The position numbers were made by a program, and so were the translations under genes. A stretch of DNA of 64,000 nt from Candidatus Enterococcus testudinis (GTDB lineage Bacteria; Bacillota; Bacilli; Lactobacillales; Enterococcaceae), in NCBI RefSeq assembly GCF_002140915.1, contig NZ_NGKU01000001.1, positions 3,121,003-3,185,002 on the forward strand. Direction: 5' to 3'. Below are positions 5,663 to 25,732 of this stretch, in pieces (within the stretch, counting starts at the first letter, position 1; the number at the start of each line of letters is the position of its first letter). The notes under the pieces were generated by a model. That model saw nothing but the letters and a program-made list of their open reading frames with translations. It did no database searches and was not told the DNA's origin.

Positions 5663-5714
5663 GCGGTACAGTTTCATTGTCTGTGCATCGTATATCTTTT
5701 CGTTTTCTTACATG

Positions 5715-5758
5715 CAAAAAAATACCCGTGAAATCAAGCTTGATTTCACGGGTATTTT
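5715..5758. terminator. Bidirectional terminator, rpoC/comC
   Basis: A perfect 15-bp stem (5722-5736 with 5741-5755, ATACCCGTGAAATCA), 4-nt loop, flanked by an A-run and a T-run. It ends the rpoBC transcript and the comC transcript. Confidence 0.9.
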
Positions 5759-5783
5759 GCGTATGACCACCGCTAAGCGACGC

Positions 5784-8700
5784 TTAGTTTTGGTTATTCA
5801 ACGCATCTTCAGCAGCCATTTGGGCTTCAATGTCAGAAATGCTGTAGACATTTTCGCTTACTACTGAAACTTCTTTTGGTTCCATTTCACGGTAACGAGC
5901 CATACCAGTACCAGCTGGGATGATTTTACCGATGATTACATTTTCTTTCAATCCTAGCAATGGATCTTTCTTGCCGCGGATCGCTGCATCTGTTAGGACA
6001 CGGGTTGTTTCTTGGAAGGACGCAGCAGATAAGAAGCTGTTTGTTTCCAAGGAAGCTTTGGTGATCCCTAGCAATACAGGACGGCTTGTTGCAGGAACGC
6101 CACCAGCAATCAATGTATTGTAGTTTTGATCAGTAAAGTCTGCGATATCCAACAATGTACCTGGTAAGATACCTGAATCACCTGGATCCATGACGCGGAC
6201 TTTACGCAACATTTGACGAACCATTACTTCGATATGTTTGTCGCCGATTTCTACCCCTTGCATCCGGTATACACGTTGGACTTCACGCAATAGGTAATTT
6301 TCAACTGACAAGACATCGCGAACTTGCAACAATTGTTTTGGATCGATAGACCCTTCAGTCAATGGTGCACCACGGTGGATGAAGTCGCCTTCTGCCACTT
6401 TCATGCGGGCTGTATACGGTACTGTGTAAGTACGTGTATCAGTTTCACCTTTGATCGTCACTTCTTTGGTACGCGTTGAAGGATCTTCAGAGATGTCGAT
6501 CACTTCACCTGTTACTTCAGTAATGACTGCTTGCCCTTTAGGATTACGGGCTTCAAAGATTTCTTGGACCCGAGGCAAACCTTGTGTGATATCGTCTCCG
6601 GCTACACCACCGGTATGGAATGTACGCATGGTCAACTGAGTACCAGGTTCACCGATAGATTGGGCAGCGATGGTACCAACTGCTTCACCAACTTCAACTT
6701 GAGAACCAGTTGCCAAGTTGCGGCCATAACAATGTTTACATACACCATGTTTGGTGTTACATGTAAAGACGGAACGGATAGAAACTGTTTCAATGCCTGC
6801 ATCCACGATGGCACGGGCTAAATCTTCAGTAATCAATTCGTTGACACCCATCATCACTGCACCTGTTTCAGGATGGATGACAGATTTACGTGTATAACGA
6901 CCAACCAAACGTTCTTCAAGTGATTCAATGATTTCATTGCCTTCACGAATTGCTTGGATATCTAAACCACGGTCTGTACCACAATCGTCTTCACGAATGA
7001 TGACATCTTGGGCCACGTCAACCAAGCGACGAGTCAAGTAACCTGAATCGGCTGTTTTCAAGGCGGTATCGGTCATCCCTTTACGGGCACCATGGGTAGA
7101 GATAAACATTTCTAAGACAGATAGACCTTCACGGAAGTTCGAGATGATCGGCAATTCCATGATACGGCCATTCGGTGCGGCCATCAATCCACGCATACCA
7201 GCAAGCTGTGTAAAGTTGGAGATGTTCCCACGGGCACCAGAATCTGACATCATGAAGATTGGGTTTTTGGCTTCCAATGATTCCATCAGTTTCAATTGGA
7301 TCTCATCTTTGGCTGCATTCCAAACACCGATAACACGTTCATACCGTTCGTCGTCTGTAATCAATCCACGACGGAATTGTTTGGTGATGGTTTCAACTTG
7401 TTTGTGGGCATTGTCAATGATGTCATGTTTTTCGTGCAAGTTCATGATATCGGCAATCCCAACAGTGATACCGGCCATCGTTGAATGGCTGTATCCTAAG
7501 TCTTTCATGCGGTCAAGCATGCGTGATGTTTCTGTGATACGGAAACGTTTGAAGACTTCAGAAATGATATTTCCCAAGTTTTTCTTCTTGAATGGCAAGA
7601 CCAATGGTTGTTCTTTGATAAAGGTTGGTACGTCAGTACCGGCATCCACAAAGTACTTGTCTGGTGTTTGCACAGTCAAGTTGAAGTCCGTTGGTTCGTT
7701 CAAGAATGGGAATTCAGGCGGCATGATCGAGTTAAAGATCACTTTACCGACAGTCGTTACCATCAAACGCTCTTTTTGTTCAGCTGTGAAAGGTTTTTCG
7801 CCTAATGTGTTTGGATTGACAGCGATACGTGAGTGTAAATGCACGTAGCCATTGCGCCAAGCAGTGACAGATTCGTCCATGTCGCGGAAGATCATGCCTT
7901 CCCCTTCACGGCCTTCTTCTTCCATCGTCAAGTAGTAGTTCCCTAGGACCATATCTTGAGATGGGGTTACAACTGGTTTACCATCTTTTGGATTCAAAAT
8001 GTTTTGCGCTGCTAGCATCAACATACGTGCTTCTGCTTGCGCTTCTTCGTTCAATGGTACGTGAACGGCCATTTGGTCTCCATCGAAATCGGCATTGTAG
8101 GCTTCACAAACCAGTGGGTGCAAACGAATCGCACGGCCTTCGACCAATACAGGTTCAAATGCTTGGATCCCTAGTCTGTGCAACGTAGGTGCCCGGTTCA
8201 ATAGAACTGGGTGTTCTCTGATAACGTCTTCTAAGACATCCCAGACTTCATCTTCTTGGCGTTCGATTTTGCGTTTGGCATTTTTGATGTTTGATGCGAT
8301 TTCGCGAGAAACCAATTCACGCATCACAAATGGTTTGAACAATTCGATCGCCATTTCTTTTGGCAAACCACATTGATACATCTTCAAGAATGGACCTACG
8401 ACGATAACAGAACGACCAGAGTAGTCAACCCGTTTACCTAGCAAGTTTTGACGGAAACGTCCTTGTTTCCCTTTCAACATGTGAGAAAGAGATTTTAATG
8501 GGCGGTTACCTGGACCTGCGACTGGACGGCCGCGGCGGCCATTGTCGATCAATGCATCGACTGCTTCTTGAAGCATCCGTTTTTCATTTTGAACAATGAT
8601 GTTTGGTGCATTCAAATCTAACAAGCGTTTCAAACGGTTGTTACGGTTGATTACACGACGGTATAAGTCGTTCAAGTCACTTGTGGCAAAACGGCCACCT

Positions 8701-12500: not shown

Positions 12501-13142
12501 ACTGTCACCGAAAATTTCAAAGATGGTGTCATCTGAACCGAACCCTAAAGCACGGACCAAGACAGTCAAAGGAATTTTACGGGTACGGTCGATCCGTACG
12601 TAAGAGATATCTTTGGCATCTGTTTCCATTTCCAACCATGCGCCACGGTTAGGGATGACCGTTGAGCCAAATCCTTCTTTTCCGTTTTTGTCCACTTTAC
12701 CGTGGAAATAGACACCTGGAGAACGAACCAACTGAGAAACGATAACCCGTTCTGCTCCGTTGATAATGAATGTGCCTTGTTCTGTCATCAATGGGAAATC
12801 GCCAAAGAAGACTTCTTGTGATTTGATTTCGCCAGTTTCACGGTTTGTCAGACGCAATGTCACGTGCAATGGTGCTGAATAGTTCGCATCATGGGCACGG
12901 GCTTCTTCTACTGTGTACTTCGGTTCTTTCAATTCGTAATCAACAAATTCAAGGGACAAGTTGCCATTAAATCCTTCGATCGGCAAAATATCTTCAAACA
13001 TTTCTCTTAGGCCCTCATCAAGGAACCATTGGTAAGAGTCGGTTTGAATTTCAATCAAATTCGGTAATTCTAATACTTCACTGATCCGTGCGAAACTTCT
13101 ACGTTCGCGGTGCTTTCCGTATTTTACTACGTGTCCAGCCAA
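9525..13142 (-). CDS. rpoB: RNA polymerase beta subunit
   Basis: Beta subunit of RNA polymerase, 1205 aa from the TTG at 13142 ([17 protein letters not shown]), which has GAGGTG 6 nt upstream; a GTG three codons earlier lacks proper spacing. The rifampicin-resistance region near residue 470 reads [20 protein letters not shown], with the usual Ser, Gln, Asp, His and Arg residues of sensitive enzymes. The C-terminal [13 protein letters not shown] lysine region is intact. The acidic tail (runs of Asp near the C-terminus) is typical of enterococci. It is transcribed with rpoC from the consensus promoter at 13375-13403. Confidence 0.98.
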
Positions 13143-13374
13143 GCTCTTCACCTCTTCATAAAGTCTTTCAAAAAGGCTATCCGATTATTTACAAAACTAT
13201 TACAAATATTAAGTATATGTAACAGAAAGCATTTTTTGCGGCATTTAGGCAAAAAAAAACCAAAAATAGAACGGATGCATTGGGCATTTTCTACTTTTGT
13301 TTTGCTATTCCTACGCCGAAACGGACAATATTTCGTTTCTGCTTTTTTCGTTCAGATAGTTTTTGCAACTCCTT

Positions 13375-13403
13375 ATTATACAGATGAAACACTTTTCTGT
13401 CAA
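13375..13403 (-). promoter_or_regulatory. Consensus sigma-A promoter of rpoBC, with long leader
   Basis: TTGACA (13403-13398), exactly 17 bp, TATAAT (13380-13375): a perfect vegetative promoter on the minus strand. It leaves an untranslated leader of about 220 nt before rpoB. Within 13152-13575 I see no gene; the remainder is A+T-rich leader and birA promoter DNA. Confidence 0.9.
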
Positions 13404-13575
13404 GCTTTCATTGGAAGTTCCAGTCCTTTTCTACCAACCGCAAATACTAAGAATTCCTAAAGAATATTTGGGGGCGCTGTACCTGTGATTTTATGTAAAA
13501 ATTCTTTGCTTTTTCTTATTTTCTTGCTATGCTTACGAAAACGTTACACGTGAAACAATTGAAAGGAAACCGGCT

Positions 13576-14538
13576 ATGACAACCAAAGAAAAAATCCTCC
13601 TATTATTGCAGCAATCAGACGTCGTCCTCTCGGGTGAAAAAATCGCTCAATCATTGACCATATCCCGGACAGCAGTCTGGAAAGCCATCAAAGAATTGGA
13701 AAAAGAAGGCTATCAATTTGATCATCTGGCCAATGGCTATCGCTATCTTTCTACTGATTTATACAACGCCGCAGTCTTGCAGAAAGAGTTGCCGATGATT
13801 CCTACCATCGAAGCCAGTGATGCCACCGAATCAACCATGAAGGAAGCCAAACTTGCCGCCCTTGATCCTACCGTGGCGACACCTGCCTTGTTTCTGACGG
13901 AAACCCAAATTGGCGGGCACGGACGCTTCAATCGTCCTTTCTTTTCGCCAAAAAAACAAGGAATCTACATGAGTCTGCTGTTGAAGCCCAACCAATCTTT
14001 CCAAGAATTGCCACAATATACAGTGTTGGCAGCTGTAGCAGTTTCTGAGGCAATCGATGCATTATTGGGTAAAAAAACGGCGATTAAATGGGTCAACGAT
14101 ATCTATCTAGACGGCAAGAAGATTTGCGGCATTCTATCTGAAGCCACCAGCGATTTCGAAAGCGGCCGTATCACTTCGATCATTATTGGCGTTGGTATCA
14201 GCTTCTCGATTCCGCAGACCGACTTTCCCGCTGAGATTCGCGACAAGGCGACAAGTTTGTTTGCCGGTGGCGAAACACCGCCATTTTCTCGTAGTGCATT
14301 GATTGCGGAAATCTGGACGCGCTTTTTCGCTTTATTGGCGCAATTACCCAACGATGACTATCTAGATCGTTACCGTCAGAAATCTTTTGTCTTGGGTCGC
14401 ACTGTCCAATTTACCCAACAAGGGGTGACTTATACGGGCATCGCCCAAGATATCACGGCCACCGGTGAATTGGTGGTACAAACCGCCCATGAGCAAAAAA
14501 TCCTGTCTTCAGGTGAAATCAGTTTAGAAAAATATTAA
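13576..14538 (+). CDS. birA: Bifunctional biotin-protein ligase / biotin repressor BirA
   Basis: Attaches biotin to acceptor lysines of carboxylases and, through its N-terminal winged helix (residues 1-60, ending in the EKEGYQFDHLANGYR wing), represses biotin genes. The protein has 320 aa, the full two-domain length. In the ligase domain, GGHGRFNRPFFSPKKQGIYM (near residue 113) corresponds to the biotinyl-AMP loop and KWVNDIYLDGKKICGIL (near residue 173) to the KWPND motif. AAAGGAAA lies about 8 nt upstream of the ATG. It is monocistronic, diverges from rpoB and shares a terminator with the convergent dmkA. Confidence 0.95.
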   Translation: MTTKEKILLLLQQSDVVLSGEKIAQSLTISRTAVWKAIKELEKEGYQFDHLANGYRYLSTDLYNAAVLQKELPMIPTIEASDATESTMKEAKLAALDPTVATPALFLTETQIGGHGRFNRPFFSPKKQGIYMSLLLKPNQSFQELPQYTVLAAVAVSEAIDALLGKKTAIKWVNDIYLDGKKICGILSEATSDFESGRITSIIIGVGISFSIPQTDFPAEIRDKATSLFAGGETPPFSRSALIAEIWTRFFALLAQLPNDDYLDRYRQKSFVLGRTVQFTQQGVTYTGIAQDITATGELVVQTAHEQKILSSGEISLEKY

Positions 14539-14547
14539 ACACAAACA

Positions 14548-14602
14548 AACAGCGTCCGCTGCTGATCCACTCTTTGGTGATCAGCGCAGACGCTGTTTTT
14601 TT
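14548..14602. terminator. Bidirectional terminator, birA/dmkA
   Basis: AACAGCGTC pairs with GACGCTGTT, with an internal CTGATC/GATCAG extension, then a T-run. The T-run overlaps the dmkA stop codon. Confidence 0.8.
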
Positions 14603-15554
14603 AGACCATTTGCCACAAGAAACAAAGGAACAAGCCGAGTGCATAGCAGCTATTGAATAAAATCATGTTTTTGATTGAATAGCCAAAACTCTTTGGCTGC
14701 GGCAAACTGGCTTGATGGGCTTTCAAATTCTGACGGATTTTTGGCAACGATAAGAAGACCAGTAAGATCGGCCATTGAAAAATACCAAACAAGAAGCCTA
14801 GCAACAGGACGACATAAGAAGCCAACATCATCCCTTGAAACAATTGGATCCCATGTTGGCGACCAATATAATAAACCAACGTATAGCGATGGTTCTCAAT
14901 GTCTGTTTCTAAGTCCCGCAAGTTATTGGCCAACATAATATTGGCAATTGTAAAGACCAGCGGCAACGAGGCCAATACAATAGCGCAGACTGCCCACAGA
15001 TTGCCGACCAAGCCGAAGGTGCCACTGGCAAAGTCTAAGGCCAAATAAAAGACCTTTTGCTCCACGGTATTGATATAGATCGTAATCGCAAAAATCCCCA
15101 GTCCCATCGTGAACCCACTAAAGACTTCCCCTAAAGGCATCCGCGACAGCGGGATCGGCCCAAAGGTATAAAAGACCCCAATAAAACAAACCACTCCACC
15201 CATGACCAGCAGCAACCAGCCAGTGGCATAAGTCAGATACAAGCCAATCACAAAGGTCAGAGCCAGCATCCCAAAAATCATATTGCGGACCACTGTTTCC
15301 GGTACTTTTTCTCGTCCAATGACATTGTGCTCAAACTTGTAGGTATCTGATTTGGCTTTTTTAAAATCCATATAATTATTGATCGAGGTCGTGGTCAAAT
15401 CAAAGACCAACATCCCCAGAAAGAAAATCAAGGTATTCAGGGGATGATATTCATGAAAGTACACCAGCGAAAACAAGACCCCCATGATAAACGGGAACAC
15501 ACTTGCTACCTTGGTCCGAAGCTCGACAACTTCTAAAAACACCGAAAGGGACAT
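14601..15554 (-). CDS. dmkA: UbiA-family prenyltransferase of the EET locus (DmkA/MenA-like)
   Basis: Integral-membrane prenyltransferase that joins DHNA to a polyprenyl chain to make demethylmenaquinone. The protein has 317 aa and about eight or nine membrane segments. Both aspartate-rich metal/diphosphate motifs are present: NNYMDFKKAKSD near residue 60 and NNLRDLETDIENH near residue 210. It sits 10 bp after fmnB on the same strand, and dmkB lies on the far side of the locus. In Listeria the equivalent gene (dmkA) makes a quinone dedicated to extracellular electron transfer; that role is inferred here from the conserved neighbourhood. A general MenA function is the alternative. Confidence 0.87.
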   Translation of the reverse strand: MSLSVFLEVVELRTKVASVFPFIMGVLFSLVYFHEYHPLNTLIFFLGMLVFDLTTTSINNYMDFKKAKSDTYKFEHNVIGREKVPETVVRNMIFGMLALTFVIGLYLTYATGWLLLVMGGVVCFIGVFYTFGPIPLSRMPLGEVFSGFTMGLGIFAITIYINTVEQKVFYLALDFASGTFGLVGNLWAVCAIVLASLPLVFTIANIMLANNLRDLETDIENHRYTLVYYIGRQHGIQLFQGMMLASYVVLLLGFLFGIFQWPILLVFLSLPKIRQNLKAHQASLPQPKSFGYSIKNMILFNSCYALGLFLCFLWQMV

Positions 15555-16641: not shown

Positions 16642-16905
16642 CATTTTCCTCTTTTCTATTGACTTCAACCACCATATCATAGCCTTTTTTGGGAAAGATG
16701 AAAAGGGTTTTTCTATGATTTGGCAGTGGTTTTATGATTCTTTAAGGGTAAAAAACTATGGCAAATACCAATTACATGTCCAAAAAGGATAGAAGAGGAA
16801 TGGGTCAATGTATGAACAGATAAAAAAGGCATCCGAAGATACCTTGATAGTAAGCATATGATATGTCTAATTTTGTGCAAACTCAAACAATGCAAAATCT
16901 AACGC

Positions 16906-17556
16906 TTATTCTTTAGAAACTGGTTTAAGCCTGCGATCTTCTATCAGATACATCTCATGACACAAATCATCTAGATCGATTTGATTATGACTTGTCAAAA
17001 GAATTGTTTTTCCTTCTTTATATAATGTCATGACGAGTTCTTTTACGATTGAAACCGATTTGGCATCTAAAGCATTAAAGGGTTCGTCCAGAATAATAAT
17101 ATCCTGATTTTCCATTACTGCCTGAATAATACCCAATTTTTGTTTCATCCCCAATGAATAGTTCTTCACCAATGTCTTATCATTAGGATCTAATCCTACT
17201 AACTGCATCAGCTCAATAATTCTGTCTTCATTGATTTTGTTCTGAATACCAGCAAGATAGTTTAAATTTGCTAGTCCAGTATACACGCCAATAAAGCCTG
17301 GGCTATCCACTAAAAGTCCTAAGTCTGTTGCAAAATCTATTCCCCCATCGCCTAGTTTCACATCACGAATAAAGACGCCCCCTTTATCTGCATGGTAAAT
17401 GCCAGCAATGATTTTAAACAATACCGACTTTCCACTACCATTCTCTCCGATAAAGCCCACTATTTTAGGTCTATCAATGGTTAACTGTAAATCTGAAAAG
17501 ATAGATCGCTTTTTAAAGGTCATTTCAATGTTTTCTAATGCAATAATATGATTCAC
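16906..17556 (-). CDS. ABC transporter ATP-binding protein of the accessory peptide locus
   Basis: ATPase subunit, 216 aa. Walker A GENGSGKS near residue 36, ABC signature YSLGMKQKLGI near residue 128, Walker B IIILDEPFNALD near residue 152 and switch histidine in LLTSHN near residue 188 are all intact, so it should hydrolyse ATP. It is the last of a run of four co-oriented genes behind the secreted-peptide gene, 27 bp after the nearest permease. Similar ATPases accompany DUF2705-type or bacteriocin-immunity membrane proteins. It could export the peptide, protect the producer, or both. The sequence is visibly richer in A+T than fmnB next door. Confidence 0.85.
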   Translation of the reverse strand: MNHIIALENIEMTFKKRSIFSDLQLTIDRPKIVGFIGENGSGKSVLFKIIAGIYHADKGGVFIRDVKLGDGGIDFATDLGLLVDSPGFIGVYTGLANLNYLAGIQNKINEDRIIELMQLVGLDPNDKTLVKNYSLGMKQKLGIIQAVMENQDIIILDEPFNALDAKSVSIVKELVMTLYKEGKTILLTSHNQIDLDDLCHEMYLIEDRRLKPVSKE

Positions 17557-17583
17557 TGTATATCACTCCTATTTTTAATTTTT

Positions 17584-18363
17584 TTAACGAGAAAAAACAT
17601 GTCTGAAGCCTTTTTTCCATATGATAAAATAGCCAACAACAAATGAGACTAGTAATATACCTGCCGCGACAACACTTGCTGGCACAAATTTCTGACCGAG
17701 CATGACCAATCTTTGAATCGATGATATGCCCACTGGCAAGTATATAGACAGATTGAAAAACAAGAGGCTATACAATCCTATACAAGATAAAAAGGATACT
17801 ACTGTATTTTTACTAAAAGCATATATCATCAAATAAAACATTTGTAACGTCATGAGTTCACAGATTTTCAAGATACTTGTGATAAAGAGAAGCTGTAAGA
17901 CAGGTACATGAATAAAAAAACCTTGATTCGTCTCAAGAATGTCCGTAACAGAGAAGTAAGATGTATCTGTAGAAAATATAAATGTGATACTTGCAACGAA
18001 GATGGCATACAGAAGAACATAGACGGTTATGACGAAAAAATGAACTATTTGCATTTGCCTAAAACTCCTACGAAAGTTTCCAAGCCGAATTATCAGTGCG
18101 TTATTGCTAAACGCATCCTCTGCCATCACCATGCTGATAAAATAAATTGGCGTACAATGTAAAATCAATATCTTCACAAAATCAAGTAAATGTACATATC
18201 CTTGGCCATAACCAAGCCCTGAATGTATAATCAACTCTTCTTTAGAGAAGACACCTACATACAAAGCATCTAATATTGTGAGCATTGAAAGTACGATCAG
18301 TGTTATCATGATGATTTTTTTAGACGTAAAATGAGTGAAATACCAGAATAAACCCTTACTCAT
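17584..18363 (-). CDS. Six-helix membrane protein, ABC-transporter permease partner
   Basis: The protein has 259 aa and about six hydrophobic segments (near residues 18-38, 62-85, 108-130, 150-175, 188-212 and 228-250) and no soluble domain. I do not recognise a specific family by motif. Its place between two similar membrane genes and the ATPase suggests an ABC-2/DUF2705-like permease half. The start MSKGLFWYF overlaps the end of the upstream gene by 8 bp, so translation is probably coupled. Codon use is A+T-rich like the rest of the block. Confidence 0.65.
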   Translation of the reverse strand: MSKGLFWYFTHFTSKKIIMITLIVLSMLTILDALYVGVFSKEELIIHSGLGYGQGYVHLLDFVKILILHCTPIYFISMVMAEDAFSNNALIIRLGNFRRSFRQMQIVHFFVITVYVLLYAIFVASITFIFSTDTSYFSVTDILETNQGFFIHVPVLQLLFITSILKICELMTLQMFYLMIYAFSKNTVVSFLSCIGLYSLLFFNLSIYLPVGISSIQRLVMLGQKFVPASVVAAGILLVSFVVGYFIIWKKGFRHVFSR

Positions 18364-19117
18364 AGCTTTTTATCCCCTTACCATTTTTTACACAATAGAG
18401 CACAAGTCCCACGACAAGTAATTGAACAATCAGTATATTAAAAAGCGCATTTTTCGCGATCGCGTGATGTAGAACCAAATAATTATTGATGAATAGATAA
18501 GGGAGGTATTCATCCCAACCCATTTGCAACCCAATCACACCAGTAAGATAAATGGTCCAGGTTACTATATGAATACTACGTTGGGAGATATAGTGTTCTA
18601 TCCATCTAATGATGATAGTGAAAAAAATCAGCCCCATAATCAAAAACAAAGATACAATAGCCAGGGTAATGATTGGTGCAGAAAAGGTCTCTCGGTACAC
18701 ATCTAATGGCAGCTCAGGCGATGGAATTCCTCTGAACTCAAATGTTGCCGGAAAGAGCAGGAAGCCGATCATACCAATAGTGAACAAATGAATACTAACC
18801 ATGAAAATTGCTAGTAAAACACTATTCAATAATTCTTGGAGCCAAAAGTATAGATAGTTTTTACAACGCATCATTACAAGTGCTCTCTGCTTTTTTTTGA
18901 CATTGTTTGCTGCAAAAATATAGAGTGCAAGGAAAATGTATAAGATATAATAATGGTCTGTGATCAACAAAATCATAAATTCAATTGCCGTTAACTCTAA
19001 TTGGTAGCCTGTACTTATATACGTTGACACATAAAAGGAAAAAAGAATCATCACGAATATGGTTTTCCATGAATACAATTCTTTGACTAAATCATATCGA
19101 AAAATAGAATGATTCAT
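18356..19117 (-). CDS. Six-helix membrane protein, ABC-transporter permease partner
   Basis: The protein has 253 aa from the ATG at 19117 (MNHSIFRYDLVKEL), which has AAGGAG about 10 nt upstream; longer in-frame starts overlap the previous gene without a better site. About six hydrophobic segments alternate with short loops. The amphipathic, charged N-terminus before the first helix (Y-D-L-V-K-E-L-Y-S-W) is typical of ABC-2 permeases. It lies in tandem with two other membrane proteins of similar size. Family assignment beyond permease-like is inference. Confidence 0.65.
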   Translation of the reverse strand: MNHSIFRYDLVKELYSWKTIFVMILFSFYVSTYISTGYQLELTAIEFMILLITDHYYILYIFLALYIFAANNVKKKQRALVMMRCKNYLYFWLQELLNSVLLAIFMVSIHLFTIGMIGFLLFPATFEFRGIPSPELPLDVYRETFSAPIITLAIVSLFLIMGLIFFTIIIRWIEHYISQRSIHIVTWTIYLTGVIGLQMGWDEYLPYLFINNYLVLHHAIAKNALFNILIVQLLVVGLVLYCVKNGKGIKSYE

Positions 19118-19137
19118 AAATCGACTACTCCTTGTCA

Positions 19138-19881
19138 TCAATTGAAGACCCCTCTTCTCCTTTGCAAGAGCATGAATGCTGCAATGAAAAGAACAAGGAT
19201 CAAAGGACCAATCAGCAAGCTTGGAATCGTCGTCCATTCAGGGTTCACACGTGTAGGGATAAGTGAAGAAGTCATCGAATATTGTGGTCTACCCAAAATT
19301 GAAAAAATGAAGTTTTCGATAAGAGAATAGATAAACCCACCTGTTGACACAATAAAAATATTCGACGTAAAAAATACTAAATGAAATGTCAACGTGTAAT
19401 ACACTATACCAAGTAACCCGCGCCACAATGATAATAAGAAACCATAAATCAACGGCTGATTCAGTCGAATGCCATCAAAGAAGTACCTCATTTCAACTTC
19501 AGCATCTGTTGCTGGAAAGCGAATATGAATAAGATAGACAACGATAATGAAGCTGATAAACGAAATGAGAAAAATACTCAAGCCACAAAGCAATGCTCCT
19601 GCTTGATATTTTACCTTCAAATATTTTTTTATTTTTATTCTGTTATGTACAAAGGTTAGATACCCCCCTTTGACTTCTAAGAAAAGCAGCGTACAAAAAG
19701 GAATTGTGGCAAATAAAGGAAACAAAAAGTTGAAAAAATCTTGACTGACTTCCCATAATTGCAGATTACTTTCGAACATTGAATTATTATTGACAATCAT
19801 AGAGTAAATCAAAATTATTGCTAGACCACAGAAAAAGGAAATCAATGCTATCCATCTTAATTGTTTTATTTCGTTCATCAT
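19138..19881 (-). CDS. Membrane protein, ABC-transporter permease partner
   Basis: The protein has 247 aa from ATG 19881 (tandem ATGs; AGGAGCG upstream). About six hydrophobic segments are followed by the basic end LLQRRRGVFN. It is the first gene after the perfect hairpin attenuator at 19918-19957, so the membrane/ATPase genes are probably read through from the secreted-peptide gene at reduced level. Three membrane proteins plus one ATPase recall DUF2705-type transporters found beside small secreted peptides, but I recognise this by layout, not by a diagnostic motif. Confidence 0.65.
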   Translation of the reverse strand: MMNEIKQLRWIALISFFCGLAIILIYSMIVNNNSMFESNLQLWEVSQDFFNFLFPLFATIPFCTLLFLEVKGGYLTFVHNRIKIKKYLKVKYQAGALLCGLSIFLISFISFIIVVYLIHIRFPATDAEVEMRYFFDGIRLNQPLIYGFLLSLWRGLLGIVYYTLTFHLVFFTSNIFIVSTGGFIYSLIENFIFSILGRPQYSMTSSLIPTRVNPEWTTIPSLLIGPLILVLFIAAFMLLQRRRGVFN

Positions 19882-19917
19882 AAAATCATCGCTCCTGCCT
19901 TCACTTATATTTGGTTT

Positions 19918-19957
19918 AAAAAAATAAGGCAAATAAAATCCTATTTGCCTTATTTTT
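19918..19957 (-). terminator. Attenuator hairpin between the secreted-peptide gene and its transporter genes
   Basis: A perfect 14-bp stem (19922-19935 with 19942-19955, AAATAAGGCAAATA), 6-nt loop, followed on the minus strand by a run of T. It lies 23 bp after the peptide stop and 37 bp before the first permease. The arrangement lets an abundant peptide mRNA and a scarcer transporter mRNA come from one promoter. Confidence 0.85.
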
Positions 19958-19980
19958 CTTTTCTAACGATTCTTTTAACT

Positions 19981-20373
19981 CTATCTCGCTCTCCACGACC
20001 CACTTGATTGTGTGTTTACAGTCGTTGTTAAATTATTAGAAACCTGTATTCTAACACTTGTCCCTGATTTCACACTTGAATGTGGTGCAATAGTAGTTGT
20101 AGTAGATTGACTTCCGATTTGGCGTCTCCATGTACCACTCCCTACACTACTATTCATTCGGATGTCTGCATTGTATCCTCCGTTATAAAATTTTTGTACA
20201 TCCCCTGAGTTACTAGCATTTGTTTTCTTTTGATATGCCGTATAGCCACTTCCATTGAGCTTACCTGTAGTGGTACTAAACGATGACAATGATGTTTGTG
20301 CTGAAGCAATAGGACCGCCGATTAAAGTTAGCATAAAAGCAAATGCCATAATTTTTTTTCTTGTTTTATTCAT
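19981..20373 (-). CDS. Secreted Thr/Ser-rich peptide, candidate bacteriocin or effector (DUF2712-like?)
   Basis: The protein has 130 aa from the ATG at 20373 (GAGGAG 7 nt upstream; a longer frame to 20409 has none). A Sec signal peptide, basic MNKTRKK then a hydrophobic core, is followed by a probable cut after ASA (residue 25). The mature part of about 105 aa lacks cysteine and is rich in Ser, Thr, Asn and Gly, with tracts such as SQSTTTTIAP and VSNNLTTTVNTQSSG, and ends WRAR. This looks like a small secreted beta-rich protein. Neighbouring permease-like genes suggest the DUF2712 group or a bacteriocin; I cannot prove either. It follows the agr operon on the same strand and has its own candidate promoter at 20606-20636, so quorum-sensing control is likely. 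Confidence 0.6.
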   Translation of the reverse strand: MNKTRKKIMAFAFMLTLIGGPIASAQTSLSSFSTTTGKLNGSGYTAYQKKTNASNSGDVQKFYNGGYNADIRMNSSVGSGTWRRQIGSQSTTTTIAPHSSVKSGTSVRIQVSNNLTTTVNTQSSGSWRAR

Positions 20374-20605
20374 AATATTTCTCCTCACTATATATTTTTT
20401 AGTTTTCATTCATTAAATCTTCAATTCAACTCTGCTTGTCGAATAGGGTTCATGCTCTTAGTAACTATCCGTTCCTCCTTCCAAAGCTATACATTAAATT
20501 TTTTTAGCAGATATACTTTTAATGTTTGGCTTTTTTATTTCTTCTTTACACTTATTAGTATACTTAGATATCAGCACAAGATACGTTTCCTTCTTCAAAC
20601 CCATA

Positions 20606-20636
20606 ATTATATGCGTAACCGCTTTATTGCTTTCAA
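20606..20636 (-). promoter_or_regulatory. Candidate activator-dependent promoter of the secreted-peptide gene
   Basis: TTGAAA (20636-20631), a 19-bp spacer, TATAAT (20611-20606) on the minus strand. The over-long spacer is like the AgrA-dependent P2/P3 promoters of S. aureus, which also have non-optimal spacing. Repeats lie immediately upstream (20636-20692). It would give a leader of about 225 nt; a second, weaker TTGAAG-17-TAAAAA lies nearer the gene. No other gene is seen in 20374-20769. Confidence 0.45.
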
Positions 20637-20692
20637 TTAAAAACAGTCACGACGTCTTCAACGCCATTCTTAATCTGTTTATTAAAAACAGT
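20636..20692. repeat. Two 12-bp direct repeats, candidate response-regulator sites
   Basis: ATTAAAAACAGT occurs at 20636-20647 and 20681-20692, 45 bp apart. The second copy is also half of the inverted pair CTGTTT/AAACAG. They lie just upstream of the -35 of the secreted-peptide promoter, where a LytTR activator would bind. The match to the canonical LytTR consensus is imperfect. Confidence 0.45.
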
Positions 20693-20709
20693 TGATAGGT
20701 ATGCCAACT

Positions 20710-20741
20710 AAAAAAGCAAAAGACTTTCTCTTTTGCTTTTA
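20710..20741 (-). terminator. Terminator of the agr-type operon
   Basis: AAAAGCAAAAGA pairs with TCTTTTGCTTTT around a 5-nt loop, with T-rich sequence following on the minus strand, 29 bp after the regulator stop codon. Confidence 0.75.
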
Positions 20742-20769
20742 TTATTCTATTTGGTTTCGCACATCCTAT

Positions 20770-21513
20770 TCATTTTTCTTGACGCAAGATTTTGGCTAAT
20801 CTAGGAATCGCTCTTACGGACACAAAGCATTCCATCCCATTTGACATCTCCACTACTCGCTCTTGTTTCTTCAACTGAGACACATGATCTAGATTAATGA
20901 GAAAGGATTTATGACTCCTAAAGAAATTTGGCAGTCTTTTTTCTAAATTTTTCATTGTATCGTAAAATTCTATTTCGCTGTCCTGGGTGTATAAAATCAA
21001 CCGATGCGCTGACGTTGAGGCTTCAAAAGCTATAATGTCAGCTATCGGCAAGCTTTGCTGGGTGTCACCTATTTTTAATTGAAACAGCTTTTTCTTACCA
21101 CTACGATCAGTCATATATCTTTGGTAAGCTGTTTTGATGCAGCTTTGAACTTTTGCCTGCAATTGATCAGTTTCTTCTTTAATAATGAAATCCATCGCTT
21201 CTATTTTATAAGTGAACGTCAAAAAAGACATCTCAGCGTGGGTGGTCACAAACACAATCTTCCCTAAATCATCGATTTCTCTGATGGCAGAGGCTAACGT
21301 CATGCCGTTCATTTGATGACCTAAATCTATATCTAAAAAGTATAAGCCAACTTTTTCAGGATTCTGCTGGACGTACGTCAACATTTCCTCCGGATCATCA
21401 GTGGATAACACTAATTCCATATCTAGCGCTTCGATCATGATGAATTCGGTTACAAACCGCTCCATTTTCTTTCTTTGGTTACTGTTGTCTTCACATATAT
21501 AAACGGATAGCAT
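20770..21513 (-). CDS. agrA: LytTR-family response regulator (AgrA-like)
   Basis: The protein has 247 aa. A receiver domain (1-125) carries the acidic pocket ICEDN and the phospho-acceptor Asp in LYFLDIDLG (near residue 61). A LytTR DNA-binding domain (about 140-240) contains FEASTSAHRLILY and RSHKSFLINLDHV. The ATG at 21513 (GAGGAG 9 nt upstream) overlaps the kinase stop by one base, so the pair is translationally coupled. The receiver-LytTR layout and gene order match AgrA/FsrA regulators. Probable targets are the agr operon itself and the secreted-peptide promoter downstream. Symbol given by family, not orthology. Confidence 0.87.
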   Translation of the reverse strand: MLSVYICEDNSNQRKKMERFVTEFIMIEALDMELVLSTDDPEEMLTYVQQNPEKVGLYFLDIDLGHQMNGMTLASAIREIDDLGKIVFVTTHAEMSFLTFTYKIEAMDFIIKEETDQLQAKVQSCIKTAYQRYMTDRSGKKKLFQLKIGDTQQSLPIADIIAFEASTSAHRLILYTQDSEIEFYDTMKNLEKRLPNFFRSHKSFLINLDHVSQLKKQERVVEMSNGMECFVSVRAIPRLAKILRQEK

Positions 21514-22817
21514 CACAAATCACTCCTCGTAATAATGAGCTGCTGAGTAAATAATTGGTCTTTAATGGTTGTTTTTAGCACGACGTCTGGATATTTGGTT
21601 AACATCTCTTTCACATTACTAAGCCCAAGTCCTCGGTTTTCTCCTTTGGTAGAAAAACCTTCTTTTTTTAGCTGTTGAATGGATGGCATATGATCTTTAC
21701 AGTCATTTTGAATAATGAATTGTATTTCTTGTTTATTCTTAAAAACGGCCACCGTCAACTTGCCAATTGACAATTCCTCTAATGCTTCAATGGCGTTGTC
21801 CAACAATATACCCAACGCGCGAACCAAAACAATCGCATCCAAGGGAATATCCTCAATCACTTCTTTTACTTCTAGATCGACTTCGATTTCAGCATTTTGA
21901 GCAGTCATCAACTTCAAAGCAAGAACACTTTTTATCTCTCTTTGTTTCATATTTTGTAATTCAGTTAATTTAAAGTTCATATCTGTGATTTCTTCAGATG
22001 TTGGTTTGATTTCATCTAAGTAGTAATTCTTTAACCCTGAAAAATCTTCGGATAAGACATAATCATCCAGAGAATTTAAAATATTCTGAAAATCATGTCG
22101 GAATTTTCGAACTTCTTTGTACTGATTTTCCATTGATTCTGTATACTCCATCAACGCTTGGTAATCTGACTCCTTTTTGATCATTTCAACCTTCGCTTTC
22201 ATTGTTCGATAGTAGAAACTGAATGCCATGATAGATAAACACAGATATAATAAAAAGAAGAAGAAATTCATCCGAATCAAGTCTGGTGTATTACCAAGGA
22301 AAGAAACCAAAAAAATATTGCAATAGTAAGTAATGAGAATGAAAAAATTGACGAAAATGAAGATTGTGTTGTTCAATAAATCAATCTGCTTATTTATTCT
22401 AAAATAAATTACAATAGAAGAAACAAGCACTGCTAAAGTCATTGTGAGTATACCAAAGAAAATACCGTAGTGCATTTGATTAGAAAATAAAAAAAAATTA
22501 GAATCGCCTCTTCCTAAAAGCATCCCTAATGTGGAGGTTAAATGATCCGAAATAATGAGTAAGATTGACGCATTCGAGGTAACTCCCAGCGATCGAACCC
22601 AATTTTTATTTCGTTGAACGTTTATAAAATATATACTCATTAACATAAATAAAGCGCCATAAATCCCGAGAAATATTCCTGATATCGCTGAACATACACA
22701 CAGGATAACGGCGAGAAATATTTGCTTTGAAGGCATTTTTTTAAGACTATCATTATCTAAGAGATAACAAATCAGAAATAATAAAAACGACTGATAGAAT
22801 GTATAGAGATGCCACAT
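21513..22817 (-). CDS. agrC: AgrC-type sensor histidine kinase (start corrupted by an adaptor artefact)
   Basis: The protein has 434 aa from the ATG at 22817 (MWHLYTFYQ). The N-terminal 190 or so residues form about six membrane helices for peptide sensing. The HPK10-type H-box VRKFRHDFQN places the phospho-histidine near residue 241; the ATPase domain has DNAIEA and GLGLSNV boxes. The assembled sequence extends the frame upstream with the false residues MCIRDRY, a translation of Nextera mosaic-end DNA at 22828-22865. Removing the insert and one 9-bp duplicate restores GAAAGAGG-TATATGACT-ATG, a good Shine-Dalgarno. An ATG two codons upstream (22823) is too close to it. The kinase itself appears intact. 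Confidence 0.87.
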   Translation of the reverse strand: MWHLYTFYQSFLLFLICYLLDNDSLKKMPSKQIFLAVILCVCSAISGIFLGIYGALFMLMSIYFINVQRNKNWVRSLGVTSNASILLIISDHLTSTLGMLLGRGDSNFFLFSNQMHYGIFFGILTMTLAVLVSSIVIYFRINKQIDLLNNTIFIFVNFFILITYYCNIFLVSFLGNTPDLIRMNFFFFLLYLCLSIMAFSFYYRTMKAKVEMIKKESDYQALMEYTESMENQYKEVRKFRHDFQNILNSLDDYVLSEDFSGLKNYYLDEIKPTSEEITDMNFKLTELQNMKQREIKSVLALKLMTAQNAEIEVDLEVKEVIEDIPLDAIVLVRALGILLDNAIEALEELSIGKLTVAVFKNKQEIQFIIQNDCKDHMPSIQQLKKEGFSTKGENRGLGLSNVKEMLTKYPDVVLKTTIKDQLFTQQLIITRSDL

Positions 22818-22818
22818 A

Positions 22819-22874
22819 GTCATATACCTGTCTCTTATACACATCTAGATGTGTATAAGAGACAGGTCATATAC
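22819..22874. other. Inverted Tn5/Nextera mosaic ends with 9-bp duplication (assembly artefact)
   Basis: CTGTCTCTTATACACATCT at 22828-22846 is followed by its exact reverse complement at 22847-22865. The 9-mer GTCATATAC flanks it on both sides (22819-22827 and 22866-22874), the target duplication made by Tn5 transposase. This is library adaptor, not genome: two neighbouring tagmentation fragments were joined. The genome most likely has a single GTCATATAC here, so 47 bp should be removed. Confidence 0.97.
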
Positions 22875-22934
22875 CTCTCTTTCATTTATAATTTCATCCA
22901 TTATATCATTAAACATCTGCAAAAATGCAAAATG

Positions 22935-22966
22935 CAAAAAAAAAACATATCTAAAATATGTTTTTT
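22935..22966 (-). terminator. Hairpin between agrD and agrC
   Basis: AAAAAACATAT (22940-22950) pairs with ATATGTTTTTT (22956-22966) around CTAAA; T-rich on the minus strand. The stem is pure A+T apart from one pair, so it is weak. It may trim the agrBD message relative to the kinase and regulator genes. Confidence 0.4.
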
Positions 22967-22975
22967 GATAAATAT

Positions 22976-23098
22976 CTATAATAATTCATCTGGCACTTCA
23001 TATTCGTCTGCGAACCCATAACAACAACTCAAAACAGCAAAACCTCCAATTCTATTTAAAGTGAAAATAATTGCCTCTATCAGCTTATCTTTTAACAT
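22976..23098 (-). CDS. agrD: AgrD-type cyclic peptide pheromone precursor
   Basis: A 40-codon gene overlapping the end of agrB by 14 bp, the usual agrB-agrD arrangement. Residues 1-20 form an amphipathic, hydrophobic leader (MLKDKLIEAIIF and onward). The core and tail are AVLSCCYGFADEYEVPDELL. Aligned with S. aureus AgrD, the Ser-x-Cys core and the following Asp-Glu-x-Glu-Val-Pro-x-Glu-Leu tail fall into register. The predicted pheromone is therefore a five-residue thiolactone Cys26-Tyr-Gly-Phe-Ala30 with a short N-terminal tail that may include the adjacent Cys25. The tail after Ala30 would be removed by AgrB. The ring prediction is inference; the gene itself is clear. Confidence 0.88.
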   Translation of the reverse strand: MLKDKLIEAIIFTLNRIGGFAVLSCCYGFADEYEVPDELL

Positions 23099-23693
23099 CA
23101 TCGTATTGTACCTCTTTCTTTTTTATTGTTAGGCATGTTGCAAGAAACATTCCGCTTGCAATTAAATTAGCTATTAGGAGTGGTAAAAATATTTGAATGA
23201 CTATTAATACTATTCCAGTTATTCCTACTTTCTTTCTCAATTCTTGCTTCTTTTTTTCATCACGAATTTTATTTTTTGCTGTCACTCCAGGCGCAAATAT
23301 TGCAAGAATCGTAAGTGAAAAGATATTTTGGATCATGATTATAGGCAATGGCAGAACCCATTGGCGAATCAAATAGGGGATGCATATGAACAGTAGAATG
23401 CTGATACAAACACAATGAAACGTATTTTTCGCATGTCTGCCATAAGCATGTCTGCGTATCAGAAGAAAGCTCACATGAAAGATCAGCGTGACCATAAACA
23501 ACTCGAAATATAGCGCCATTCCATAGATAATCAATGTCTTCAGTAAGTTGTTCATCAACACATCTGCTCCAAATGAAACTTTGATATATAAGTGCTGATC
23601 ATGCTCTTTATGGATGGGTAATTTTCCAACTAGCCATGAGCTCATTCTTTTTTCAATATGCCATAGGTTTAGTAATTGCGCCTTCTCTTCCAT
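23085..23693 (-). CDS. agrB: AgrB-type membrane endopeptidase that processes the pheromone precursor
   Basis: The protein has 202 aa and several membrane segments. AgrB enzymes use a His and a Cys seven residues apart; here GRHAKNTFHC supplies His87 and Cys94 with exactly that spacing. The nearby HAYGRHAK and the C-terminal basic cluster are typical. The enzyme cuts the AgrD tail and closes the thiolactone in the cytoplasmic membrane. GAGGGG lies 6 nt upstream of the ATG. It follows the 146-aa gene by 16 bp and overlaps agrD. Confidence 0.9.
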   Translation of the reverse strand: MEEKAQLLNLWHIEKRMSSWLVGKLPIHKEHDQHLYIKVSFGADVLMNNLLKTLIIYGMALYFELFMVTLIFHVSFLLIRRHAYGRHAKNTFHCVCISILLFICIPYLIRQWVLPLPIIMIQNIFSLTILAIFAPGVTAKNKIRDEKKKQELRKKVGITGIVLIVIQIFLPLLIANLIASGMFLATCLTIKKKEVQYDDVKR

Positions 23694-23709
23694 TCTTTTC
23701 CCCTCTATC

Positions 23710-24150
23710 CTAATGTCCTAGTTCTGTCTCAATCACCCTATCGACAATCAGTCCGCTCACTGGACCTTCCATATCCGGTATTTCAACCCATTTTCGATCC
23801 ATGACACGCAACAGATTCTTCACCTGTTCTTTTAGCAGCACGATACGTTCTTTGGAAGTCTCAGATTCAATGAACAATAAGAAATGGCCTTTTCCATCTA
23901 AATGATTGAAAAGCTTATTGGAGAAAACATCTACCTGATCATTTACTTTTTGCTTGATGAATAATTGGTTGTTTACAACGATGATGAGTGCCGCATCATA
24001 CTCTTGTATGTTATCTTGCCTATTCTGATACTTACAATGAAGCAACTTAAAAATTTCGTGTATGACAACTGGCTCACCATTTGCCTGTTCGATCATTTCA
24101 AATGACGTAAAAGGAATACTTGTTAATTTGTCTTCAAACTTGCACAACAT
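23710..24150 (-). CDS. Unknown 146-aa cytoplasmic protein, first gene of the agr-type operon
   Basis: The protein has 146 aa with no signal peptide, membrane segment, cysteine pair or motif that I recognise. The sequence alternates short beta-like stretches (DAALIIVVNN, GHFLLFIES) with helices (ERIVLLKEQVKNLLRVMD), suggesting a small alpha/beta domain. GGAGG sits 9 nt before the ATG. The stop is 16 bp before agrB and no promoter separates them, so it is co-transcribed with the quorum-sensing genes. Canonical agr and fsr operons have no counterpart in this place. A regulatory, chaperone-like or immunity role are all open. Confidence 0.7.
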   Translation of the reverse strand: MLCKFEDKLTSIPFTSFEMIEQANGEPVVIHEIFKLLHCKYQNRQDNIQEYDAALIIVVNNQLFIKQKVNDQVDVFSNKLFNHLDGKGHFLLFIESETSKERIVLLKEQVKNLLRVMDRKWVEIPDMEGPVSGLIVDRVIETELGH

Positions 24151-24188
24151 CCATGCGTACCTCCTTTCTTATCTGCCTAACTACTTCT

Positions 24189-24194
24189 ATTGTA
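24189..24194 (-). promoter_or_regulatory. Candidate -10 of the agr-type operon
   Basis: TACAAT on the minus strand about 39 bp upstream of the first gene. No good -35 is found at 16-18 bp, as expected of a promoter that needs an activator. Confidence 0.4.
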
Positions 24195-24248
24195 TATAAG
24201 TTCATTCAATACACGCGTTTCTTTCGTCAAACATCTAGTTTCAATCAT

Positions 24249-24298
24249 GAACGTCGTTCAAATGGGTCAAGACAACGTTTAGGCCTACTCAAACGTTG
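24249..24298. promoter_or_regulatory. Candidate LytTR (AgrA-like) binding sites upstream of the agr-type operon
   Basis: An 11-bp palindrome with one central base, GAACGTCGTTC (24249-24259), and an inverted pair CAACGTTT (24273-24280) / AAACGTTG (24291-24298). AACGTTTAG at 24274-24282 fits the general LytTR half-site [TA][AC][CA]GTTN[AG][TG] exactly. Several ACGTT cores are clustered in 50 bp. They lie 55-105 bp upstream of the candidate -10. Confidence 0.5.
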
Positions 24299-24317
24299 CT
24301 TACGTGCTTTGGATAGA

Positions 24318-24345
24318 CAAAAAAACAGCATCCCTTAGGATGCTG
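24318..24345 (-). terminator. Terminator belonging to the pplA relic
   Basis: CAGCATCC-CTTA-GGATGCTG with a T-run on the minus strand. It is nearly identical in sequence to the terminator after intact pplA (24747-24780). It insulates the agr-type promoter from upstream transcription. Confidence 0.8.
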
Positions 24346-24364
24346 CTCGCGCATATTCGTATAT

Positions 24365-24462
24365 TTATTCCGGCATAAAGTTGTTCACTTTTCCCGGTAT
24401 TTATTTGTCTTTCTCACATCCGATCCGCATTGCTGCCCTTCTCTTGTTGATTATTCTATAGC
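24365..24462 (-). pseudogene. Decayed 3' fragment of a pplA-like gene
   Basis: The minus strand ends PGKVNNFMPE-stop, matching the last residues of intact PplA (PIEVDNFVTE). Upstream, EKDK-stop-I aligns with EKGDQT, so a Gln codon has become TAA at 24401-24403. Further upstream, a QQ...EKG-like segment aligns only after a frameshift. Similarity fades near 24460. No start or signal peptide is left. With the matching terminator this is a remnant of a duplicated or replaced pplA. Confidence 0.75.
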
Positions 24463-24501
24463 GACTCCCGACTATATAAATCAACTAATTTGGGCCTATA
24501 T

Positions 24502-24546
24502 AAAAAAAAGAAAGTATTGGCTGAAACTTCACTAACGGCCAATACT
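24502..24546 (-). terminator. Second minus-strand terminator between pplA and its relic
   Basis: AGTATTGGC (24513-24521) pairs with GCCAATACT (24538-24546), with a T-rich tail on the minus strand. The rest of 24463-24746 holds no convincing gene; a small inverted pair TTCACT/AGTGAA lies near 24700. Confidence 0.6.
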
Positions 24547-24746
24547 AGTCTTAAGAATATGCAGATCTGACATCATTATAGCCATATCTTCATTTTTAGT
24601 CAAATTAGAATATATTCTTTACGTATAAAGACATAATACCCTGGATATTTCATACGAATAATGTACCACGCCACAAAAATGAAGCGGAAATCAAGATATT
24701 CACTTATTAGTGAACTATTTGATGTAGAAGGCTTTCTTCCTAGGAA

Positions 24747-24780
24747 CAAAAAAACAGCACCCCTTAGGATGCCGTTTTTT
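24747..24780 (-). terminator. pplA terminator
   Basis: CGGCATCC-taag-GGGTGCTG with a run of seven T on the minus strand, just past the pplA stop codon. Confidence 0.75.
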
Positions 24781-24790
24781 GTACTTAGAT

Positions 24791-25732
24791 TTATTCAGTG
24801 ACAAAGTTGTCCACTTCGATTGGTGTTTGGTCGCCTTTTTCAGCTGCATTCAATAATTGTTGTGCATAGATCACAAAGCTGTGGAAGCTGTGGGTTGCGC
24901 CTGATACAACATCCATGTCAGCAACAGAACCGTCTTCGCCATTCACTGCCGTCACGAATTCTTCGTTAAAGTTCGGAATGAATTCTTCTGGGTTGGTACC
25001 AGATTTTGCTTTCATGTTTTCGTTGTAGTCAGCGTCATCTTTCTTGGAGTCGCCAGCTTCATTAACATAGTCATAGTTTGATTCTGATACTTTCCCATCA
25101 GCAACTGTGATTGAGAAGGCCACGCGGTAGCCATTAGAATAGTTCTTTTCTTCCAATGTGTACGTACCATCTTGCAAGTCAGCGCCATTGTCGATTTCAA
25201 TCGTATCTGTGTTGCCTGCTTGTGCTGCTTGAATCAATTGTTGTGCATAGTTTTGGAATGAATCAAATGAATGAGTCGCACCAGATACAACTTCGATTGA
25301 AGATGGGCTTTGGGCTGCAACCAATTCTTCGTTGAATTTTGGAATGAATTCTTCTGGGCTAATGCCTGCTTTTTCTTTCATTGTTTCATTGTACTCGGTG
25401 TTTTCTGTTTTTGATTCGCCATCGGCATTGATGTTGTCATACTTAGATTCAGTGATTTTTCCATCAACGACTGTGATCTCAAATGATACACGGTAATCGT
25501 TCTTATAGTTCTTTTCTTCTAATTTGTACGTGCCATCTTGCATCGGTTCGCCAGCCACCACTGTCGACTCACTTTCGCTTGTTGCTGTTGATGACGCTAC
25601 TGTAGAACTTTGTGATGTTTTTTCGTTAGTTGACGAAGAATCGGCACTACTGTTGTCTGATCCGCATCCCCCTAACAATAACACTGCGAATGAAAATGTT
25701 GCCATACCTACAATCAGTTTCTTTGCTTTCAT
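24791..25732 (-). CDS. pplA: Flavinylated electron-transfer lipoprotein with two FMN-binding domains
   Basis: Extracellular lipoprotein of 313 aa that carries covalent FMN and passes electrons to outside acceptors. The signal peptide ends in the lipobox LLGGC (Cys23). A Ser-rich linker of about 35 residues is followed by two tandem FMN_bind repeats (about 65-175 and 185-300). Each repeat has the flavinylation motif SGATHSF, where FmnB/ApbE attaches FMN to the Thr. The two repeats are close paralogues (QDGTYKLEEKNYKND and QDGTYTLEEKNYSNG). It is divergent from ndh2. It is separated from its probable modifying enzyme FmnB by the agr accessory block, and a broken second copy of its 3' end lies downstream. 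Confidence 0.92.
   Translation of the reverse strand: MKAKKLIVGMATFSFAVLLLGGCGSDNSSADSSSTNEKTSQSSTVASSTATSESESTVVAGEPMQDGTYKLEEKNYKNDYRVSFEITVVDGKITESKYDNINADGESKTENTEYNETMKEKAGISPEEFIPKFNEELVAAQSPSSIEVVSGATHSFDSFQNYAQQLIQAAQAGNTDTIEIDNGADLQDGTYTLEEKNYSNGYRVAFSITVADGKVSESNYDYVNEAGDSKKDDADYNENMKAKSGTNPEEFIPNFNEEFVTAVNGEDGSVADMDVVSGATHSFHSFVIYAQQLLNAAEKGDQTPIEVDNFVTE

Follow-up and report, generated by a model that had tools for sequence, protein, structure and literature searches.

The agrBDCA operon of Staphylococcus aureus and the fsrBDCA operon of Enterococcus faecalis encode, in this order, the membrane endopeptidase AgrB, the acidic-tailed pro-pheromone AgrD, a GHKL-type receptor kinase and a LytTR-type response regulator (definitions and ring sequences as in the available text of PMC12312760), and Fsr controls enterocin O16 (available text of PMC5454873). 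Operons of the lactococcin 972 type, such as those of lactococcin 972 (Lcn972) and streptococcin B, combine a small secreted protein with membrane protein and ATP-binding cassette (ABC) ATPase genes; Lcn972 is carried on the 11-kb pBL1 (available text of PMC4055356), and streptococcin B is under peptide-pheromone control via ComE, with presumed Sec secretion and lipid II binding (available text of PMC11796350). Similarly, the secreted proteins of family DUF2712 (PF10916) are encoded together with an ABC ATPase and with permeases, the latter of about 220-270 aa; no paper mentioning DUF2712 or DUF2705 was found. All of these resemble parts of a block of ten genes (positions 16906-24150) between pplA and fmnB in a 64,000-bp window, the whole stretch of DNA analysed (G000:C1:3121003-3185002), of the 3.20-Mb genome of Candidatus Enterococcus testudinis, an Enterococcus of the gallinarum group. 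With moderate confidence, this block is considered an acquired island of two modules, in which an agr system controls a putative, bacteriocin-like secreted protein with ABC-based self-protection. Its parts are of known kinds; their pairing is unusual, not unique.

All ten genes lie on the minus strand. An earlier note on this DNA, made from the sequence alone, had counted nine; its gene names, order and common orientation were borne out. The comparison within the genus covered six genomes, namely the own genome (G000), G047, G048 (E. gallinarum NBRC 100675), G049, G051 and G050, Enterococcus sp. RIT-PI-f, hereafter the sister species. The genes and the insertion are as follows:

23710..24150, minus strand: u146, 146 aa, first gene of the agr block, no family assignment
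23085..23693, minus strand: agrB, AgrD-processing membrane endopeptidase, 202 aa (PF04647)
22976..23101, minus strand: agrD, pro-pheromone, 41 aa, predicted ring CCYGF (PF05931 and TIGR04223, near cut-off)
21513..22817, minus strand: agrC, receptor histidine kinase, 434 aa (GHKL domain)
20770..21516, minus strand: agrA, LytTR response regulator, 248 aa (LytTR and Response_reg domains)
19981..20373, minus strand: effector gene, secreted-type protein, 130 aa (translation; signal peptide by eye)
19138..19881, minus strand: permease M1, 247 aa (22-30% identity to the post-effector permease of those other copies in which BLAST detects it)
18356..19138, minus strand: permease M2, 260 aa (position and size)
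17584..18363, minus strand: permease M3, 259 aa (tblastn, 36% over 72 aa)
16906..17556, minus strand: ABC ATPase, 216 aa (ABC_tran, E 4e-23)
16750..24745, no strand: estimated span of the pplA-fmnB insert (limits set where homology of the flanks to the sister species and congeners ends)

Judged by families and gene order, the agrBDCA set is complete. AgrB matched PF04647 (E 5.9e-29, 101.2 bits over a cut-off of 23), and a GHKL-type AgrC (PF14501, E 2.7e-17) and a LytTR-type AgrA (PF04397, E 4.8e-20; Response_reg, E 2.7e-14) adjoin agrBD in the BDCA order. The best NCBIfam match of AgrC was the staphylococcal AgrC model NF046015 (E 1.2e-66, 225.7 bits versus a cut-off of 500). AgrD scored slightly below the curated cut-offs of PF05931 (22.5 versus 22.7 bits) and TIGR04223 (18.7 versus 19 bits); its size, position and motif are as expected for agrD, a CCYGF stretch being followed by an acidic tail, and the CC-x-GF motif is common to the AgrDs of loci L118 and L119. 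Profile searches thus upheld the AgrB and LytTR assignments of the earlier note; for AgrD they fell just short of the cut-offs. Unlike the agr and fsr operons, the block has the predicted ring CCYGF, absent from the rings tabulated in the available text of PMC12312760, an extra gene (u146) in front and an effector/ABC operon behind, and the window yielded no Rfam match above the gathering score. For u146, the best Pfam match had an E value of 0.088, none being above cut-off, and no NCBIfam match was found. Matches to it occurred in eight of 105 genomes of the family, namely the own genome, the sister species (58%) and six genomes of genus g13; all six of the latter also have agrC matches, and three of them were read in context. 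Two or three tandem agrC paralogues were seen in L118 (G086), L171 (G071) and L149 (G074), where several pheromone receptors possibly feed into one regulator.

The second module starts with the effector, the mature part of which comprises about 105 aa and ends in SGSWRAR. Neither the effector nor the three permeases matched a Pfam family at E up to 1, so that DUF2705 and DUF2712, which the earlier note had considered, were not matched directly. The sole NCBIfam match of the effector was weak (SSU0592/SSU0593 family, E 0.0028, 18.5 bits versus a cut-off of 80), and a search of solved structures with its profile gave a best E value of 0.088, which is not meaningful. M1, M2 and M3 matched no NCBIfam model at E up to 1, including that of the TIGR01654-type immunity proteins. 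M2 and M3 together replace a single protein of 479-509 aa present in many relatives, and M3 is similar to the C-terminal portion of such a permease, of 488 aa, in the sister species. The best NCBIfam match of the ATPase was the lantibiotic-protection ABC model TIGR03740 (E 7.3e-38, below cut-off); its identity to the ATPases from other modules of this kind is about 37-50%.

Several observations indicate that the block was inserted. Its G+C content is 34.5% versus 44.3% in the remainder of the window, in line with the A+T richness pointed out before, and lies outside the range of 166 other segments of 7245 bp (43.2-47.2%); that of pplA is 41.7%. The gap between pplA and fmnB is 220-240 bp in four of the five congeners (G047, G048, G049 and G051), and no insert was found at this junction in two genomes of other genera examined. 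An insert is present in the window (about 8.0 kb) and in the sister species (about 6.5 kb). This agrees with the insertion proposed in the earlier note. Neither flanking gene was cut, as the insert begins 3' of the pplA terminator and the 55-70 bp before the fmnB start still align between G047 or G049 and the sister species or the window at 87-95%, and less well for G048 and G051. The flanks represent a standard extracellular electron transfer (EET) locus, with UbiA, ApbE (FmnB), FMN_bind (PplA), Pyr_redox_2, NusG_II, Hpre_diP_synt_I and polyprenyl_synt domains. Indeed, ndh, pplA, fmnB, a quinone prenyltransferase gene and eetA/eetB-like genes occur together, as in the flavin-based EET (FLEET) locus (available text of PMC9864754). 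Since the insert sits 3' of the pplA terminator and spares the conserved bases immediately preceding fmnB, the location of the island within an EET locus appears incidental.

A trace of the way of entry may be seen at the borders:

24317..24390, minus strand: diverged duplicate of the pplA terminator region, 5' of u146 (74 bp, 76% identity to about 24746-24816)

Similarly, in the sister species each end of the agr insert bears a 57-bp repeat of the pplA terminator region (96%), which suggests entry or rearrangement via these repeats. An 89-aa frame after the second terminator copy of the sister species (L076, 8890-9159) gave no Pfam match and is perhaps bacteriocin-immunity-like. The site of the sister species reads pplA, u146, a thioredoxin-like protein, an ABC ATPase, a permease, a 208-aa protein, agrC (77%), agrA (79%), the 89-aa frame and fmnB. 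AgrB and agrD were not found there, and neither a protein query nor the PF04647 profile retrieved AgrB anywhere in that genome; among the six congeneric genomes, AgrB occurs only in the own one. The stretch before agrC of the sister species still aligns with the agrD-agrC spacer of the window (72%), which would fit a loss of agrBD. A distant effector module (effector 31%, ATPase 50%) lies on another contig of this species, near recombinase-like and methylase-like frames (by eye) and without agr. The agr module and the effector module are separable, as the sister species combines the agr part on site with a different ABC module and carries an effector module elsewhere without agr. The entry of a peptide-effector system as one unit, as assumed earlier, is not supported by this site, which holds u146, agrC and agrA without the peptide cassette.

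Pairing of agr genes with a bacteriocin-type operon was found elsewhere. A first parallel is a locus in another genus of the family (L170 in G085), where agrB, agrD, agrC and agrA are followed on the same strand by genes for a lactococcin-972-like precursor (TIGR01653, E 6.1e-7, 29.6 bits, cut-off 32.1), a membrane protein (TIGR01654, E 6.5e-42, 143.9 bits, cut-off 189) and an ATPase (TIGR03608, E 6.2e-72, 241 bits, cut-off 255). Order and strand (small protein, agrBDCA, secreted protein, membrane protein and ATPase) are those of the window; unlike the window, G085 has a lactococcin-972-like effector, and its AgrD ring is predicted to be CCLFT. Where the window has u146, G085 has a 127-aa gene that is only a tentative u146 relative (BLAST E 0.15, hhalign 53%). 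A second parallel lies in the own genome, which carries a second agrC-agrA pair without agrBD, divergent to a lactococcin 972 operon (L086, 4466-10115; G000:C1:2028000-2046000) that passes the cut-offs (precursor PF09683, E 3.8e-10; membrane protein TIGR01654, E 1.6e-83). The sister species also possesses such a pair without agrBD, divergent to a lactococcin 972 operon with a 100% identical precursor and a 99.6% identical membrane protein. PF09683 was found at 16 places in 15 of 105 genomes, not counting the G085 precursor, which is not among them; among the agrC matches listed, those recognised within about 3 kb of such a place were confined to the own genome and the sister species. Furthermore, G084 contains a u146-type agr island with a C39-peptidase ABC exporter, an ABC ATPase/permease pair, short Cys-containing frames and thioredoxin-like proteins that are distantly PedC/BrcD-like, below cut-off; the island of G074 resembles it by BLAST and length. 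In genus g13, short frames whose leader-like part ends in AG and whose tail has two Cys lie between thioredoxin-like genes and agrB (L149, about 13068-14938; L148, about 5046-6928), and by eye look like bacteriocin precursors. The insert of the sister species and the agr part of the window look like differently trimmed g13-type islands. The earlier note had known of no system of this composition, and none was found in print among the papers listed; a paper naming both lactococcin 972 and agrBDCA treats them, in its available text, as separate loci. The G085 locus is nevertheless a counterpart with a lactococcin-972-like effector.

The effector module recurs as well. Members of its effector family were retrieved from 12 of 295 Lactobacillales genomes; a narrower profile applied to the class gave six of 299 genomes. 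Both counts include the own genome. Three of seven genomes matched in one search (G082, G028 and G026) had the match inside a frame of 299-561 aa and were not counted as relatives. Twenty-one copies outside the own genome were read in context (L081, L084, L085, L108-L117, L152, L153 and L220-L225), excluding matches in G172 and in G620, the latter holding a stop. In most of them, in Lactobacillales and other Bacilli alike, the effector gene is accompanied by permease M1, by either a single long permease or two short ones, and by the ATPase. As exceptions, no ATPase was recognised in L109, a permease frame is broken in L112, L114 was read in part, fewer permeases precede the ATPase in L116, L223 ends at a contig end, and the effector lies on the opposite strand in L113, L117 and L153. 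In L220 (7958-12938), a class-level relative, what by eye looks like a transposase gene separates M1 from the effector, and the part read does not include the ATPase position. One module is carried by a mobilisable Priestia plasmid of 9971 bp, and no effector relatives were found in viral contigs.

Kinship with described families is at best remote. DUF2712 members were found in nine of 246 genomes (eight above cut-off), but not in the own genome by a PF10916 search, and at the seven places read, out of ten, they adjoin permeases and an ABC ATPase, with some frames broken; this is the operon layout of the window. The DUF2712 operons differ from it by lacking a direct profile match (9.8% in a profile-profile comparison, and no PF10916 match for the effector) and a recognised agr system alongside. 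The effector clade links to DUF2712 only via an intermediate group, at 94.5% and then 96.8% with signal peptides included, and three members of this group match PF10916 weakly (E 0.01-0.068, under cut-off). Lactococcin 972 shows a weak link to the same intermediate group over 51 columns (91.6%). These profile comparisons make a distant kinship of the effector clade, DUF2712 and lactococcin 972 possible. TMcin (available text of PMC12328743) was rejected as an identity, its cluster having a metalloprotease gene that the window does not contain.

Taken as an agr-controlled island, the block would work as follows. AgrB would cut and cyclise AgrD into a thiolactone peptide with the predicted ring CCYGF, which would be sensed by AgrC and answered by AgrA. 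In a dense population, AgrA would induce the operon that encodes it and probably also the effector operon next to it. The latter would encode a small secreted, bacteriocin-like protein and an ABC transporter, most likely protecting the producer. The results that weigh against this scheme concern, on the one hand, the link between the two modules and, on the other hand, the nature of the effector.

Regarding the link, the modules may be neighbours by coincidence, each having reached a permissive intergenic site on its own and being under its own regulation, with agr controlling other genes; this is less probable than the scheme above, albeit a serious possibility. It is favoured by the separability seen in the sister species and by the absence of any agr gene recognised by BLAST near all 21 other effector modules, several of which end at contig ends. 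In addition, an ABC ATPase occurs within 6 kb of four of 20 agr loci versus six of 20 control regions of the same genomes, hence without enrichment, as judged by a strict detector that apparently missed a C39 exporter. Two hairpins, listed by the scan on the plus strand only, bear on transcription of the effector operon:

20712..20740, listed on the plus strand: 12-pair hairpin after agrA, possible terminator
19920..19957, listed on the plus strand: 16-pair hairpin between the effector gene and M1, attenuator-like

On the minus strand, the complement of the agrA hairpin terminates in a short run of T, part of which belongs to the stem. As this hairpin sits between agrA and the effector gene, the latter probably has its own promoter. 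A further hairpin occurs upstream of u146. The terminators or attenuators that had been noted at the joints were thus retrieved as hairpins, but terminator-like sites were not in excess (6 versus a mean of 4.0 and a standard deviation of 2.2 in shuffles).

Promoter comparisons likewise gave no support for a common control. An AgrA-like direct repeat upstream of the effector was not above shuffles (p 0.96). A LytTR scan with an S. aureus consensus gave nothing above shuffles upstream of the effector, the agr operon of the window and the lactococcin 972 operon; one of 13 regions (agrB of L148) reached p 0.043, which is chance level. No 9-mer is common to the effector promoter and the agr promoter of the window, and those common to the effector and the agr promoter of the sister species are A-rich only. 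The word ACGTTCATG was present, with up to one mismatch, in five of nine agr-island promoters (0.33 expected), an enrichment that is overstated because islands L148 and L149 come from close relatives; it was found neither upstream of the effector nor in the G085 agr promoter. These tests are weak, given the degeneracy of LytTR sites and the lack of any known site for the AgrA of the window. AgrA control of the effector operon, and with it the thiolactone control advanced earlier, is thus putative and unsupported by the promoter sequences, no AgrA-like site common to both promoters having been found. A regulatory RNA upstream of the effector was rejected as a candidate on the Rfam result given above, a search at E up to 1 within the block giving adapter-palindrome matches only; folding of this region (z -3.65 with the agrA hairpin, -2.2 without it and -1.75 for the G085 counterpart) is too weak for a claim. 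Against mere coincidence, the gene order in G085 is identical, agrA being followed immediately by a bacteriocin-type operon of another kind, and the second agrCA pair of the own genome lies beside a bacteriocin operon; since both show it, the arrangement of agr with a bacteriocin operon recurs.

Regarding the effector, it is unlikely that the secreted protein has a surface or signalling function, with the ABC proteins exporting it or sensing or removing antimicrobials from outside. The effector matches no bacteriocin family in Pfam and NCBIfam, PF09683 and TIGR01653 of the lactococcin 972 precursors included, and its alignment with the lactococcin 972 profile covers the signal peptide only (17.8%). 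Moreover, no characterised relative of the effector or the permeases was found, and the ATPase is similar to those of lantibiotic protection, a class that can confer protection even where no toxin is linked to it. The window has three permeases of about 250 aa where lactococcin 972 operons have a single membrane protein (673 or 726 aa in the two copies read), and the functions of the membrane and ATPase genes are, according to the available text of PMC11796350, unverified in any lactococcin 972 locus. Conversely, the signal peptide of the effector, seen by eye, should make a dedicated exporter superfluous. Furthermore, the module was found on a small plasmid and parallels lactococcin 972 operons in its gene set. 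An ancestral block that was lost from other species is very improbable: both the own and the sister species carry u146, agrC and agrA at the site, so the agr part may predate their split, but the block is absent from the junction in the other four congeners and the two genomes of other genera, and its base composition, far from that of its surroundings, likewise departs from the ancestral pattern outlined in the earlier note (presence in all relatives with matching composition).

One feature of the block concerns the assembly rather than its biology:

22828..22865, no strand: 38-bp palindrome at the agrC start, adapter remnant in the assembly (exact match, 0 expected)

This palindrome, presumably a Nextera-type adapter, is flanked on each side by a 9-bp direct repeat and adds a spurious MCIRDR start in the agrC frame. 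It is an assembly artefact, because it is present at 18 or more further positions of the genome. In a DNA search for plasmid copies of the block, the palindrome alone matched (five records, enterobacterial plasmids).

The two agrCA pairs allow a further reading, which we regard as rather improbable. The single AgrBD of this genome would feed both its own AgrCA and the orphan AgrCA by the lactococcin 972 operon, so that one thiolactone would trigger two unrelated, secreted bacteriocin-type weapons, and the sister species, with both AgrCA pairs and no AgrB by profile, would eavesdrop cost-free. The EET context itself appears not to matter. If agr controls the cassette, a new effector class, consisting of a DUF2712-like secreted protein with ABC permeases, would join the agr regulons, and a family without assigned function would obtain its first functional context. 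Furthermore, at one and the same chromosomal site, one of the two sister species encodes both the signal maker and the receiver and the other only the receiver, which offers a natural comparison for signal-blind or eavesdropping receivers.

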